From positions 1-62,307 of the forward strand of contig NZ_SDPL01000001.1 of assembly GCF_004135055.1 (NCBI RefSeq): a stretch of DNA of 62,307 bases, in the 5' to 3' direction. Made by a program: the position numbers and the translations under genes. Within the stretch, counting starts at the first letter, position 1, and each line of letters starts with the position of its first letter. This DNA comes from Agromyces binzhouensis. Its GTDB lineage: Bacteria > Actinomycetota > Actinomycetes > Actinomycetales > Microbacteriaceae. Positions 1,802 through 54,238 of this stretch are shown piece after piece. Below the pieces are notes generated by a model, which was given only the letters and a program-made list of their open reading frames with translations, did not search any database and had not been told where the DNA came from.

Positions 1802-1872
1802 GCCGATGTAGTTCAATGGTAGAACTTCTGCTTCCCAAGCAGACAGCGCGGGTTCGATTCCCGTCATCGGCT
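1802..1872 (+). tRNA. tRNA-Gly (anticodon CCC), ICE integration target
   Basis: A 71-nt cloverleaf: acceptor arm GCCGATG pairs with CATCGGC, D arm GTTC/GAAC, anticodon arm TCTGC/GCAGA enclosing the loop TTCCCAA (anticodon CCC), and T arm GCGGG-TTCGATT-CCCGT. The CCA end is not encoded. The 3' half from 1823 onward is also the 52-bp ICE attachment core, so integration leaves the tRNA complete because the element supplies an identical 3' end. A TACGAT hexamer at 1767-1772 is a possible -10 box. Confidence 0.97.
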
Positions 1873-1874
1873 CT
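1823..1874 (+). repeat. attL core (52-bp direct repeat, tRNA-Gly 3' half)
   Basis: Identical base for base to 52980-53031. It runs from AACTTCTG (start of the anticodon arm) to CATCGGCTCT, two bases past the tRNA end. The copies diverge at both borders (G versus T on each side), so the core is exactly 52 bp. Crossover within the anticodon arm is typical of tRNA-targeting tyrosine integrases. Confidence 0.95.
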
Positions 1875-45006: not shown

Positions 45007-45056
45007 CGGGCGAGCCAGGTCGCGGCGACAGTGACGTGGTGTGGGAAGGTCGACTC

Positions 45057-46499
45057 GTGAGCGAAACAGTGCCCCTTCGTCATCTTCTCGAGCCCGGCGA
45101 GTACCGGGTGCAGTGGACGATTCCGTCACGAGAAACCGGGGAGATCACGCTCGAAGGCGACCTGGATCTGGTCGCTGACCGCCCGCCGCGCGCGCATGTC
45201 TATGGCGAGATCCCCGGGACCTACTCGCCGGGCGAATCCGGAACACGAATCGCGAGTTTTCCGCAAAGCTACTACGGGGGTTTGGTGCGGGGACGCCTGC
45301 TGAACGGGCAGCACGTCCTGCTCGTGGACACCACCATCGACGTCATCTTCCCCGACCGGGCGGCACTACACGCACGGGCTGCGCTCGTCGGCCGCAACCC
45401 TGCCCCCGATGGCGAACTGTCCGTCACGCAGATGAAGGCCCAAGTAGAAGGACTCGACGCGGTAGCGGGGATTCCGCCGATTCACCAGACCGAGGTGCCA
45501 ATGCAGGCGCCACCAGGAACGAAGCATCTCGACTGGAGCTGGAAGGCCTATGGGCAGCCGGAGAGCACGCAAATCTGGGCGGATACGGAGGCCGAGGTAC
45601 AGATCCGATACCTGAACAGTTACTCGGCGACGGACTGGTACGCCTTTCGCGTGAGCTTCAGCCCGGTCGTGCTCGTCAAACCGACCGCTCCTCTGGGTAT
45701 TGAGGCGGTGTTCGACGATTGGATCGAACCGGTGCGGCGCCTCATCTCGCTCTCAACCGGACGGCGCGAACGCCTTACTTTCGTCTCCGTGACGCTCGCA
45801 GGCAAGCCTGACATCGCGCCGGATGGAGACGAGGTCAACGAGTTTCAGATATACGGGAGCGCGATCCACCAAGAGCCATACGCATCACGTGGAGCGGACG
45901 TTGGCAAACTCTCGCCAGCGTTCCACTTCTCGCCACAGGAGATGTCACTCCTGGCGATGCTCCGCCGCTGGCAAGAACTCGCGGCAGATCACCACCCGCT
46001 TCTCGAGTCCTACGCGTCCCTCATTTACGCCCGAGACCAGCACCCTCGCTCCCGGTTGCTGCTGCTCATCCAAGCCATCGAAGGCTTCTACGGTCATGAG
46101 ACCCACGCCGCCTACGAGGTCCGGCTAGCAACACACAAGACCCGCAGGGAAGAGATCCTCGCCCTCCTCGCGAAGACGCAAAATGAGGACGTAATGAGCT
46201 TCCTGAAGAAGCACCTCATGAAATCGCCTCCGGCCAGTCTGGAGGAGGCCCTCGGGAAGACGCTAAAGGCCGCGCCGGTCGACGTCGTCCCGGAGCTGAA
46301 AAGGACGGCCCTGCTATCCGAGCACGAATCGGTTCCGTCTGGTCTGCGCATCATCCGCAACGATCTCGCTCACGGTAACCGCGGCTACCCACCCGAAGAC
46401 CTCCACGAGATTGTTCGCGCCCTTGATGGCGTTGTCCGAGCCAACCTGCTGCGCGTCCTTGGTTGCGACGAAGCGAGCCAACGAGCGGCCCAGCAGTAG
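45057..46499 (+). CDS. ApeA-like HEPN ribonuclease (abortive infection type)
   Basis: 480 residues from GTG 45057, with GGAAGG 8 nt upstream (a GTG at 45036 is an alternative). The N-terminal part (about 1-190) has beta-rich segments ITLEGDLDLV, AHVYGEIPGTY and LVRGRLLNGQHVLLVD, like the ApeA N-terminal domain. The C-terminal helical domain (about 330-475) carries LLLLIQAIEGFYGHET and the HEPN catalytic R-x4-H in IIRNDLAHGNRG (about 432-437). ApeA proteins are known anti-phage HEPN effectors that likely cleave host RNA. Following the helicase-nuclease gene suggests they work together as sensor and effector. Confidence 0.82.
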   Translation: MSETVPLRHLLEPGEYRVQWTIPSRETGEITLEGDLDLVADRPPRAHVYGEIPGTYSPGESGTRIASFPQSYYGGLVRGRLLNGQHVLLVDTTIDVIFPDRAALHARAALVGRNPAPDGELSVTQMKAQVEGLDAVAGIPPIHQTEVPMQAPPGTKHLDWSWKAYGQPESTQIWADTEAEVQIRYLNSYSATDWYAFRVSFSPVVLVKPTAPLGIEAVFDDWIEPVRRLISLSTGRRERLTFVSVTLAGKPDIAPDGDEVNEFQIYGSAIHQEPYASRGADVGKLSPAFHFSPQEMSLLAMLRRWQELAADHHPLLESYASLIYARDQHPRSRLLLLIQAIEGFYGHETHAAYEVRLATHKTRREEILALLAKTQNEDVMSFLKKHLMKSPPASLEEALGKTLKAAPVDVVPELKRTALLSEHESVPSGLRIIRNDLAHGNRGYPPEDLHEIVRALDGVVRANLLRVLGCDEASQRAAQQ

Positions 46500-50017: not shown

Positions 50018-51256
50018 ATGAAACGAACCAGCGACCTGAGCGGGGACCAGATGACGGTCGAGCGTGAGCCCACGGCGGCGGAGATGGAAGAGTGGCAGCG
50101 GGAGCACACAATTGCCTCGTCGGACGAGATCACGGACGTGACCTACCCCCGTATGACGAACTTGAGCGCGGGGTTCATGTTTCGGGCGATCGCCAAGCCG
50201 CTGCAGCCTGAGCGCCCGGAGTACGTGACCATCCGTTCGGACGGTTCGTTGGAGACCGTGGGGATGATCGCGCAGTGGAACCTTCCCTGGGAGGCAGGGC
50301 AATTCCGGCGGCGCTACTTCGATGAGGATGACTTCACCCCCCAGCTGCGACGCATCGCCAGCCTCGGCGACGTCAACGTCACGCTGGTGCCGCGGACCCG
50401 GTCACGGTACTGGGAGTACGCCCCGCTCGTGCACCTCCTCCCCCGTGCCACGCTTGAACGGTTCGGTCTGCCGCTGCTCCGCGCCGGCCAGTGGCCATTT
50501 CTGGCTGATTCCGGGGGTATCGATCGTTACCTTCCCGAGGACTTCGAGCAGAGGCTGTCCCGGGCTTGGGCGTCGGTCGTGTGGCCGCATCTGGTGTCCG
50601 GGTCGCCGATGAGGGGGTTCTCGAAGGATGACCCGATTCGGCTGCTCTCCCACAACCTTGATTACTGGCTGCCGCCGGTCACCGCAGTGATCCAGGACAC
50701 TCTCCGACAGTTGCCCGAGATCGCCAACGGCATCGAACCAGGCCCGGTCACCCTTGTCGACGGCAGCACCCTTGAAGGTGCCATCGCGGCCAACCCGAGG
50801 AAGGGAGGGGACATCTGGGAAGGCGAACAGGAAGCCGCTGAGATCGTGGAACGCACGGTTGAGGCGGCCGATGGGACGGGTCGGCTGCGGGGAATCCTAG
50901 ACGCTGTTCGATCGAATCGCGTCGAGGACGACTTCTCGAGCACGTGGTCCTTCGCGCGGGAGGATTTCGAGCGCAAGCTCTACCGGAAGCGATCGAAGAC
51001 TCGGGTTCGTTTCGTTGAGCTCACAGACACGATCCCGGTGCAAGCACCGGAGAGCGATATTCTCGGCTCTCTTGTCACCAACGACTTCCTCGCGGTCCTT
51101 GACCAGCGCAACCGGCAGATCGTCGTCCTCCTCAACAGCGGCTACACAACGAAGACCGAGATCGCGGAGATCCTCGGCTTCGCCAACCATTCGCCGGTCT
51201 CGAAGCGGCTGGCTCAGATTCGCAAGACGGCGAACGACTTCTTCGGTGAAGACTGA
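50018..51256 (+). CDS. Unknown protein with C-terminal sigma-4/HTH-like domain, divergent from XRE
   Basis: 412 residues from ATG 50018; the frame is open back to an ATG at 49922 inside the operator, which would give 444 residues if leaderless. The body (about 30-340) has no recognised family and includes YPRMTNLSAGFMFRAIAKPL, AQWNLPWEAGQFRRRYFDE and YWEYAPLVHLLPRATLERFG. The last 55 residues (LDQRNRQIVVLLNSGYTTKT, then IAEILGFANHSPVSKRLAQI) form a helix-turn-helix of the sigma-70 region 4/LuxR kind. It is probably a DNA-binding protein under control of the divergent XRE, or a defence-linked sensor; both are inference. Confidence 0.6.
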   Translation: MKRTSDLSGDQMTVEREPTAAEMEEWQREHTIASSDEITDVTYPRMTNLSAGFMFRAIAKPLQPERPEYVTIRSDGSLETVGMIAQWNLPWEAGQFRRRYFDEDDFTPQLRRIASLGDVNVTLVPRTRSRYWEYAPLVHLLPRATLERFGLPLLRAGQWPFLADSGGIDRYLPEDFEQRLSRAWASVVWPHLVSGSPMRGFSKDDPIRLLSHNLDYWLPPVTAVIQDTLRQLPEIANGIEPGPVTLVDGSTLEGAIAANPRKGGDIWEGEQEAAEIVERTVEAADGTGRLRGILDAVRSNRVEDDFSSTWSFAREDFERKLYRKRSKTRVRFVELTDTIPVQAPESDILGSLVTNDFLAVLDQRNRQIVVLLNSGYTTKTEIAEILGFANHSPVSKRLAQIRKTANDFFGED

Positions 51257-51380
51257 TGACCAACGAGCGCCGCACCGAAAGCGCCCGCGTGCCTAGCGGG
51301 ACACATGGGTCAGTGGTCGACAGTTGGTGAGCAGGCCCGCCGCGGGTGACTTCGACGGGAACGGTCAGACCCAGCGGGTA

Positions 51381-51440
51381 GAGAAAAACCCCGGTCGCAT
51401 CATGGCTCAAGGCCAGAGAGGCGAAACCCGGGGACTTCTG
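51381..51440 (+). ncRNA. Candidate structured leader RNA upstream of Abi_2 HEPN gene
   Basis: The 220-bp gap 51257-51477 has no gene. Within it CCCCGG (51389-51394) pairs with CCGGGG (51428-51433), enclosing GGC (51404-51406) pairing with GCC (51412-51414); an A-rich start (GAGAAAAA) and GGCGAAA flank the stems. Abi_2/AbiF-type HEPN genes have been linked to upstream noncoding RNA antitoxins, so this may be an RNA partner. No terminator or promoter was proven. Confidence 0.45.
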
Positions 51441-51477
51441 GTTCTAGTTTATTGGCATCGGCGGAAGGAGTCCAGCC

Positions 51478-52278
51478 TTGATTGACCAGCCCGGTGGTGC
51501 CGATCCGGTGGCCGCTGCGGCGATGGCCGCGGCGCAGCTTGCCCGCGAGGAGTCGGCTCTGGACCAGGCCATCTCGGCGGACAGGTTTGCCACGTACCTC
51601 GGTGCGGGCGCCGGCGATCATGCGCTGGCCCGCGCGCTGTATATCTGGGATCGGGATGTATCGATCTCAATCCTTGCCGATATCGCGATCCTCGAGGTTG
51701 CGCTCCGCAACGCGATGCATGGCGCGTTGAGCGCGGTGTGGGGTGTCCGGTGGTACGAGAACCCCGATCTTATGTTCGATGAGCGCACGCTCGGGCAGCT
51801 GCGTCGCGCTTGGGAGGAACTCCCGGCACCGGTCCGCAAGAACCGTTCCGACTCGCGGCTTCCCGGGCGGCTGGTGGCACGCTGCATGTTCGGTTTTTGG
51901 GCGAACCTGCTCGATGCCGGCGGACAGGTTGGTCTCGAACCGCGACGGACCAAGGTCGACTACGAGGTTATGTGGCGCAGTGCACTGCATAGCGCGTTCA
52001 AGGGTGGCCCGGTCGAAGCTCGCGCAGAGGGAGCCAGGTATACCCGGCCGTGGGCGCATGAAGCACTGCGCACCGTGAACATGCTCCGAAACCGCGTAGC
52101 GCACCATGAGCCTTTGATCAATGGCTTTCCGCTTCCAGGGCAAGCCCAGCGGCTCAGCGCCATCGACGGACACGAGGCGTGCCGGAAGTTGGCGCGAATG
52201 ATCGACCGCGACCTCGCAACCTGGCTGGACCGCTCTTCGCAAACGCCGACATTGCTCGCTACCCGCCCGCAGCCCTGA
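51478..52278 (+). CDS. Abi_2-family (AbiD/AbiF-like) HEPN protein
   Basis: 266 residues from TTG 51478, selected for its strong GGAAGGAG 7 nt upstream. The family layout is clear: ADRFATYLGAGAGDHALARA, then YIWDRDVSISILADIAILEV, ALRNAMHGALSAVWG, and the C-terminal HEPN catalytic R-x4-H in MLRNRVAHHEPLIN (about 202-215). Abi_2 proteins cause abortive infection; the HEPN pocket is expected to cut RNA. It is the last clear gene of the ICE before attR, with a structured leader just upstream. TTG initiation would keep expression low, consistent with a toxic product. Confidence 0.85.
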   Translation: MIDQPGGADPVAAAAMAAAQLAREESALDQAISADRFATYLGAGAGDHALARALYIWDRDVSISILADIAILEVALRNAMHGALSAVWGVRWYENPDLMFDERTLGQLRRAWEELPAPVRKNRSDSRLPGRLVARCMFGFWANLLDAGGQVGLEPRRTKVDYEVMWRSALHSAFKGGPVEARAEGARYTRPWAHEALRTVNMLRNRVAHHEPLINGFPLPGQAQRLSAIDGHEACRKLARMIDRDLATWLDRSSQTPTLLATRPQP

Positions 52279-52979: not shown

Positions 52980-53031
52980 AACTTCTGCTTCCCAAGCAGA
53001 CAGCGCGGGTTCGATTCCCGTCATCGGCTCT
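52980..53031 (+). repeat. attR core (52-bp tRNA-Gly 3' copy)
   Basis: Perfect match to 1823-1874. It contains the anticodon arm, T arm and 3' acceptor strand of tRNA-Gly but not the 5' half, so it is not a functional tRNA. It marks the right end of the ICE. Confidence 0.95.
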
Positions 53032-53770: not shown

Positions 53771-54238
53771 TCACGAGGTGGGCGGCCAGTCGATGAGCGG
53801 CGCGTCACGATGCACGTAGAGCGGATGCTTCGGGTGCCCATCCTTCGTGACGCCCAATGCGTTGAGCGAAGGCAACAGCGCGACCGCCTGAGCGACTCGG
53901 GCCGGGTCGGCGTTCGTGCCCCACCCCGCTACGACGGTGCCAGTCACTTTGCCGAGCACGCGATCGTTCTCAGGCCCCACGGGATCAGCCGCGGCCATCA
54001 TCACTCTCGGGGACTTGGTACGGAACGCGTACAGGTTGGCGATCACCATGCCGCCGTACCCCTCGCGCTTCGCGAAACCGACGCACCGCCGTAGCGTGGG
54101 ATCGAGTTGCTCCGCGTCGGCGGTGCTCGGGTTCAGCAGCACGAACGTGATCGTTGGCAGCGCTGCGTCCCAGACGCGGGTCAGTGTGTAGCGGTAATCG
54201 CCACGGATGTCCGCGGTGGCCGAAACGAAGTCATTCAT
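53771..54238 (-). CDS. DUF1643 protein
   Basis: 155 residues. Typical DUF1643 segments: YRYTLTRVWD, ITFVLLNPSTADAEQLDPTL, RRCVGFAKREGYGGMVIANLY, AFRTKSP, and HPKHPLYV near the C-terminus. The family is widespread and of unknown function, often on mobile or variable loci. It is just outside attR and overlaps by 4 bp a short upstream frame ending ...SSEFDE. Confidence 0.88.
   Translation of the reverse strand: MNDFVSATADIRGDYRYTLTRVWDAALPTITFVLLNPSTADAEQLDPTLRRCVGFAKREGYGGMVIANLYAFRTKSPRVMMAAADPVGPENDRVLGKVTGTVVAGWGTNADPARVAQAVALLPSLNALGVTKDGHPKHPLYVHRDAPLIDWPPTS

Follow-up and report, generated by a model that had tools for sequence, protein, structure and literature searches.

The closest described relatives of the locus reported here are AbiF-AbiFr, known from the PbAbiF complex (8VZ6), and AbiFCd-RCd22 of C. 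difficile. In both, an Abi_2 HEPN protein with an R-x4-H motif is accompanied by a structured noncoding RNA (ncRNA) located upstream of its gene. As described in PMC12373285 and PMC12737573, the RNAs of PbAbiF and AbiFCd bind and silence the toxin and are regarded as antitoxins. The AbiF-like group has been linked to the origins of Cas13 (PMC12165695, PMC12373285), and AbiF has been proposed as the ancestor of Cas13, with its RNA partner as the forerunner of crRNA. The type III toxin-antitoxin systems ToxIN, CptIN and TenpIN are similar in that an RNA antitoxin is proposed to bind an RNase toxin directly. According to PMC12373285, however, ToxIN complexes are structurally different.

The window, i.e., the whole 62,307-nucleotide stretch of Agromyces binzhouensis DNA that was analysed, fairly likely contains a two-gene RNA-protein toxin-antitoxin (abortive-infection) module, in which a 57-nt small RNA (sRNA) silences an AbiF-like HEPN RNase (Table 1). 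Its assignment to the AbiF-ncRNA kind of system is partly supported; it would be an actinobacterial variant whose RNA is not recognised as RF03085, is predicted to be transcribed divergently and has its own predicted terminator. RNAs of the RCd22 type are co-transcribed ahead of the toxin with read-through, whereas here the promoter and U-run signals are on the other strand, although a test based on A.C and G.U pairs leans to the contrary. RCd22 has two motifs, and the window has a single copy of the element with no tandem array. Compared with type III systems, the window has a HEPN toxin and lacks a repeat array and a shared operon with a read-through terminator. Type VI CRISPR Cas13 is also a HEPN RNase with a small structured RNA and a proposed common ancestry through AbiF, but the window protein has one HEPN motif (RNRVAH) where Cas13 has two, and its RNA is conserved without a spacer-like part. 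The idea of an RNA antitoxin, raised in a first-pass annotation of this DNA, is strengthened by the analysis, with its strand, coordinates and architecture revised.

Table 1. Features of the Abi-RNA locus, its surroundings and the second orphan element.
Feature	Position	Strand	Basis or remark
Upstream ORF end	51256		Gap to Abi ORF, 221 nt
Structured RNA element, 57 nt, probable antitoxin sRNA (predicted)	51384..51440	-	Covariance model R1, covariation, conservation
U-run at sRNA end; predicted intrinsic terminator with CCGGGG stem	51384..51388	-	Sequence; homologue tails
-10 box TAAACT of sRNA, 7 nt before GAAG; predicted start about 51438-51439	51446..51451	-	TANNNT position test
-10-like TAGTTT of Abi gene (predicted)	51445..51450	+	1 nt off sRNA -10, symmetric TANNNTA
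Ribosome-binding site GGAAGGAG of Abi gene	51463..51470	+	Read from sequence; 7 nt 5' of TTG start
AbiF-like Abi_2 HEPN protein, 266 aa; RNRVAH, residues 204-209	51478..52278	+	Pfam, alignment, AlphaFold2, 8VZ6
tRNA-Gly(ccc) 3' end, left copy of 51-bp direct repeat; probable island left end	1823..1873	+
Right copy of 51-bp tRNA-Gly repeat; probable island right end	52980..53030	+
Orphan R2-type element	L249 8477-8522 (-); L251 479-524 (+)		Metagenomic phage contigs

The Abi Gene and Its Protein

The gene-free gap noted earlier in front of the Abi gene was confirmed, with no convincing gene inside it. The reading of the gene as Abi_2 HEPN with an intact R-x4-H also stands. The window protein matches Abi_2 (PF07751) with 30.1 bits against a Pfam cut-off of 25.6, and the R, N and H of its RNRVAH are invariant across 18 homologues in the alignment. 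The TTG start had been called weak; in its context it is not, because GGAAGGAG lies just before it.

The AlphaFold2 model of the protein has a pLDDT of 95.5. Its top structure match in the PDB is 8VZ6, the PbAbiF-ncRNA complex (rmsd 3.3 over 209 residues), with Z 13.0, a level that the tool calls doubtful for helical folds; as helical folds score high, the weight rests on the gap to the next row (4.7). Foldseek likewise placed 8VZ6 at rank 1 (E 8.8e-3, probability 1.00), and in a PDB sequence-profile search it appeared merely at E 0.015, amid ankyrin artefacts. The proposed link to the Cas13-ancestor group is supported by the best structural match by far. The nearest PADLOC profile is PD-T4-5 (E 1.4e-9), with AbiD weak (0.0017), and the anti-phage role of the window protein is putative.

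A Conserved RNA Element in the Leader

Nested hairpins had been noted in the leader, but the folding energy of the gap on the plus strand is ordinary: no unusual stability was found for 51257-51477 (z -1.06; 31 of 200 shuffles as stable) or for 51360-51477 (z -0.53; 57 of 200). The minus strand contains the 57-nt element, which occupies 57 of the leader's 221 nt and is oriented away from the Abi gene. It folds with -25.1 kcal/mol, and 1 of 500 mononucleotide shuffles was as stable. It begins with a conserved GAAGUCCCC 5' end, continues through three stacked helices (CCCCGG/CCGGGG, UCGC/GCGA and UGG/CCA) and finishes with CCGGGGUUUUU, with a U-run at the 3' side; GAAG and CUCU are conserved and unpaired. 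A covariance model, R1, was built from ten seeds aligned on the minus strand, and the window element, itself one of the seeds, matches it with 81.4 bits.

The absence of covariation in homologues had been named in advance as the result that would refute the idea; the test was run, and the stems covary. In family A, with 33 distinct rows, 93.0% of the cells are paired, 6 pairs are changed on both sides, and there are 35 double-changed cells compared with 12.1 in shuffles. In a wider set of 39 rows, 94.5% are paired and 10 of the 13 pairs are changed on both sides, with 51 double-changed cells against 13.7 in shuffles; when the pairing partners were slid, at most 8 such cells remained and the signal was destroyed. 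Wherever copies are called distinct, identical ones were collapsed (50 loci to 35; 52 to 51). Set A2 takes in one likely false row (the second match in L101) and the divergent L007, and set A4 leans towards the R1 structure because it was selected by R1 at E < 0.01. In 17 comparisons the RNA element is 70-93% identical and the protein 48-65%, so the RNA is the more conserved of the two.

No family of Rfam 15 matches the element. The abiF RNA family RF03085 has no match in the window, nor in 51200-51560 up to E 10, nor in 20 Abi loci at gathering scores; the sole sub-threshold Rfam match in 51200-51560 is L31, which lies outside the element. In the literature available to the search there was no report of such an RNA, and the published AbiF work (Cell 2025) may mention actinobacterial cases. 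The first-pass proposal that the leader is an RNA partner of the Abi protein survives in part: there is a conserved, covarying RNA candidate, but its strand, coordinates and architecture differ from those proposed, as it is divergent and confined to the 57 nt.

The element could also be a DNA operator or a plain terminator in a divergent promoter region rather than a functional RNA. It is palindromic, GC-rich and adjoins promoter signals, and a few matches of a second model described below, R2, are plain terminators (L056, L247). Conserved unpaired positions, together with covariation in three helices with internal loops, nevertheless fit an RNA, as do the promoterless phage copies next to tRNA genes, and such a DNA-level role is considered quite improbable.

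Strand, Promoter and Terminator Signals

A sigma-70 consensus scan found 0 promoters and 2 terminator-like sites, neither of them at the minus-strand end of the element; a TANNNT position test was used in its place. Of 32 distinct non-viral copies, 28 have a TANNNT box that precedes the conserved GAAG by 6-8 nt, compared with 0.6% of background positions. The four copies without it (L071, L074, L083, L084) have an Abi remnant, a broken gene or no Abi. The loss is not general in decayed loci: of the ten with broken, remnant or absent Abi, these four lack the box and six retain it (L072, L076, L081, L085, L092, L093). At the other end, 22 of 24 matches of a sequence pattern that did not require T have three or more T among the 5 bases that follow GGGG. 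A U-rich 3' end is found in 43 of 51 R2 matches against 10 of 51 on the other strand, a count that is partly selected because the R2 model includes the tail.

The predicted -10 boxes of the two divergent genes overlap in the window. A plus-strand TANNNT exactly 1 nt off the sRNA -10 is found in 13 of 24 distinct leaders, window included; given one box, the symmetric form needs just one more T, so roughly a fifth to a quarter would be expected by chance (a rough estimate). In L002, L038 and L042, this plus-strand TANNNT lies 6-7 nt before the Abi ATG, and there the Abi mRNA would be leaderless.

These signals bear on the alternative that the element works on the plus strand and, in the manner of RCd22/abiF, belongs to the Abi mRNA as its structured leader or attenuator. 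RCd22 is co-directional with its toxin gene, according to PMC12373285. Of the 52 leaders matched by R2, two have a co-directional match, both weak, and L018, L019 and L022 may be co-directional as judged by eye. The A.C/G.U strand test leans the same way: in family A the minus-strand cells include 13 A.C and 1 G.U, which would read G.U and A.C on the plus strand, and the counts thus fit a plus-strand RNA better. Twelve of the 13 A.C cells fall on two pairs (8 on 18-80, 4 on 13-82), and pair 18-80, which also shows U.U and A.A, may thus be absent from part of the family; the wider set has 6 A.C and 7 G.U cells. Against a plus-strand leader stand the -10 at the minus-strand 5' end (28/32) and the U-run at the minus-strand 3' end. 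The plus-strand -10, where present (13/24), lies between the element and the gene, which would leave the element outside the Abi mRNA, and the phage orphans are on the strand of tRNAs and late genes. A plus-strand leader is accordingly judged unlikely. With the opposite strand and its own -10 and U-run, as read from the sequence, the element probably does not serve the Abi mRNA as a leader.

An antisense RNA of the type I kind, which would pair with the Abi mRNA, is highly improbable. The element is on the strand opposite to the toxin gene but does not overlap it. Type I systems rely on complementarity of the RNA to the toxin mRNA; here, pairing was no better than with shuffled RNA (159 of 200 and 88 of 100 shuffles as good).

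Recurrence beside Abi Genes

When the whole leader was used as a DNA query against 199 genomes of the window's family, 7 had a match, and in the window, G049 and G017 it lay at the element. The other four are GC-rich fragments at leader positions 67-116, outside the element. One leader match in another genus is 93% identical over 57 nt and lies upstream of a 65%-identical Abi gene. With the element alone as the query, 14 actinobacterial plasmid records were retrieved (83-93% over 54-61 nt), from Mycobacteroides abscessus (9), Rhodococcus (2), Mycobacterium marinum, Dietzia and Prescottella; an A2-type element as the query had no plasmid match. In the seven plasmid records inspected, the element is just 5' of an "Abi family protein", except in Prescottella (L041), where about 90 nt separate it from a "hypothetical protein" identified as Abi by an HMM. 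The element thus recurs next to Abi genes, both chromosomal and plasmid-borne, in several actinobacterial families. In a protein-only search of 299 family genomes, the seven best homologues (48-64% identity) all carry it; five of them are R1 seeds, L003 and L007 are not, L007 scores just 25.8 bits, and L008 is split over two frames. In M. abscessus Tn-seq data reported in PMC8262987, pMAB23 was dispensable except for repA and the region upstream of repA, which is indecisive for the element because it has no TA site.

The sequence pattern required no U-run, promoter, helix 3 or outer pairs of helix 2. It found 24 stretches in a genome-contig collection and 10 in viral contigs, and all 34 match R1 at 62 bits or more; three of the 24 (L086-L088) are loci L006, L003 and L002 again, two of which are R1 seeds. 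A full open Abi gene is present in 13 of the 24 genome-contig loci, and one runs off the retrieved stretch (L080). Abi is broken in L074 and L076 and a fragment in L071 and L092 (by tblastn) and in L072 and L093 (by eye); no Abi trace was found in L081, L083, L084 and L085. In all 20 genome-contig loci with an Abi trace, Abi is on the divergent side.

R1 was also searched against 394 genomes and found 26 places, which besides the window and G049 gave 24 loci (L046-L069); by an Abi HMM scan, Abi adjoins the match in 8 of them. The other 16, except L048, L054 and L056, were taken for chance (19.8-27.4 bits). The broader model R2 matched 52 of 93 actinobacterial Abi leaders at E < 0.001, 50 of them divergently, which is not an independent count because R2 was built from 36 of these leaders and three plasmid loci. 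The 93 leaders comprise 52 of the 56 and 41 of the 50 matches listed from two Abi protein searches; the window, G164, second pieces, short fragments and one longer match in G424 were set aside. The promoter is not part of R2, and TANNNT lies 3-11 nt upstream in 40 of 51 distinct matches, with a background of 2.4%. Two same-strand R2 copies 5' of one Abi gene were noted in L172 (89-137 and 161-201) and L175 (100-146 and 167-212), and L147 also has two same-strand copies (70-122 and 275-329), an array-like arrangement that recalls RCd22.

In 296 genomes, R2 found 39 places. Thirty loci were scanned, and 20 have Abi on the divergent side (two partial). Among the ten without Abi on that side, L243 retains the Abi N-terminus (tblastn 1e-12), L048 and L245 retain it by eye only, and L235, L054, L244 and L246 contain orphan-like elements. 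The weak tblastn match in L235 overlaps the element and that in L048 belongs to the Abi gene next to it. The matches in L056 and L247 are plain terminators, and that in L059, found on both strands, probably is too.

At the same threshold, R2 has no match in 41 of the 93 leaders. Several of these show other hairpins by eye, some in the same divergent layout. By eye, L018, L019 and L022 have a different conserved hairpin (GCCCCAG...CCTGGGGC) 5' of Abi. It is accompanied by a TANNNT-like box and a T-rich tail, both on the strand of the Abi gene, and may be a co-directional RNA of these bacteria. In L015, L021, L023 and L024, which belong to another Abi clade, a longer two-hairpin element ending in a T-run is seen by eye on the divergent strand; R2 has no match to these leaders at E < 0.001.

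On an Abi tree of 71 rows, made with a quick method and a one-matrix model, the four RNA labels need 12 changes compared with 35.8 when shuffled. Genes of less than 0.6 coverage (L008, L017, L074, L080) and L086-L088 were left out, and L076 was included as a 169-residue part. Family A falls within one 22-row set that includes L007 (support 99), a grouping that partly reflects selection, because RNA or DNA searches supplied the majority of family A rows. Selection does not account for the A1/A2 split within the set: RNA subtype A2 corresponds to exactly one Abi clade of 8 rows (support 100), which spans the window's family, Brevibacteriaceae, Actinomycetaceae and Corynebacteriaceae. RNA subtype therefore follows Abi clade, i.e., the two have co-diversified.

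Lone Copies in Phages

Besides the ten viral contigs of the pattern search, copies are present in the GenBank M. abscessus phage or prophage records phiGD24-3, prophiGD24-3, prophiT46-3 and prophiBWHA-1. Twelve copies were inspected, those of the 10 contigs and of 2 of the 4 records. All are 5' of a tRNA gene on the same strand, mostly at a tRNA cluster; the distance is 9 nt in ten copies and 36 nt in the other two. In the two annotated records, the element is flanked on one side by lysin A and on the other by a tail-region gene, annotated as a minor tail or hypothetical protein. The viral copies have no -10, and TTCTCT replaces the U-run, so release of the RNA would require cleavage of a longer transcript, for which RNase P acting at the tRNA is a possibility. 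With the window protein, tblastn found no Abi in mycobacterial phages (5 records match at 1e-5, none of them mycobacterial). Plasmids of M. abscessus carry the full Abi-RNA pair.

The phage orphans are candidate anti-AbiF decoys. There is a precedent for a phage-borne copy in a cyanophage with a predicted abiF sRNA (PMC9964418), and a reference title in PMC12737573 states that a DNA region of the lactococcal phage sk1 protects phage 712 from AbiF. The recurrence with Abi and the lone phage-borne RNA near tRNAs suggest that the RNA is an antitoxin and that phages may copy it.

Two related metagenomic phage contigs (Table 1) contain a second, different element, which matches R2 with 39.9 bits and precedes tRNA-His by 72 nt; no relatives of L249 were found among GenBank phages. 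Four further viral pattern matches were taken for chance: L252 and L254 have no R2 match, and L250 and L253 are weak and inside ORFs.

Proposed Mode of Action

From the conserved covarying element with its place and orientation, the promoter and terminator signals, the AbiF fold and the match of subtype and clade, a scheme of transcription, binding, neutralisation, RNase target and phage trigger can be predicted. Transcription of the 57-nt sRNA would run leftwards to an intrinsic terminator of its own, from a promoter with a -10 that overlaps the -10 of the rightward Abi gene; through this overlap, the two transcripts would be coupled or balanced. Once folded, the sRNA would bind the AbiF-like HEPN RNase and keep it inactive, in the way that AbiF is bound by PbAbiFr and RCd22. 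We infer that it is an RNA antitoxin because of the homology with PbAbiF and AbiFCd, whose RNAs have this function. During phage infection, the sRNA may be lost, diluted or sequestered, and the freed RNase would stop growth by cutting cellular RNA, perhaps tRNA. The phage copies would act as decoys. Cas13a cuts tRNA anticodons, according to PMC12373285 and the title of PMC11042736, and by analogy tRNA would be a plausible target of the window protein. The RNA-antitoxin reading made at first is partly supported, with a conserved covarying RNA candidate beside a protein that has 8VZ6 as its best match; this RNA is not recognised as RF03085 and is probably not a co-directional leader.

The RNA could instead be a guide or activator of the HEPN enzyme, as in Cas13, rather than its inhibitor. 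Cas13 is proposed to descend from AbiF-like proteins (PMC12165695, PMC12737573), and the unpaired GAAG and CUCU could serve recognition. The family A alignment, however, shows no variable, spacer-like part, and the published AbiF RNAs are described as antitoxins in PMC12373285. Some loci keep the RNA with Abi decayed or absent, and phages carry it alone, which fits a protective role better; a guide or activator is regarded as improbable.

With the antitoxin reading, a broader and more tentative proposal can be made, which as a whole is rather doubtful: that a large, unlisted actinobacterial family of divergent RNA antitoxins shares a symmetric promoter with its toxins, and that phages carry single copies as decoys beside tRNAs that serve as replacements, because the RNase, once released, cuts tRNAs. 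A second RNA family, in the opposite orientation and covarying across many actinobacterial families, would show how freely AbiF-like proteins exchange or evolve their RNA partners, and specificity could be tested on the many toxin-RNA pairs that it offers in nature. From the single phage copies next to tRNA genes, RNA-based counter-defence and a tRNA target follow as testable predictions, and with the plasmid and phage versions of Mycobacteroides both sides are present in a single host species.

Genomic Setting

The 51-bp tRNA-Gly repeat bounds a probable 51-kb integrated island, and the Abi-RNA pair it carries is about 0.7 kb from the probable right end. The same island contains a second HEPN defence gene at 45036-46499, which is ApeA-like (ApeA_NTD1 in Pfam; PDC-S58 and Cas13-ApeA in PADLOC). 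A DUF1643 protein (Pfam) is encoded at 53771-54238 on the minus strand, just outside the right end of the island.
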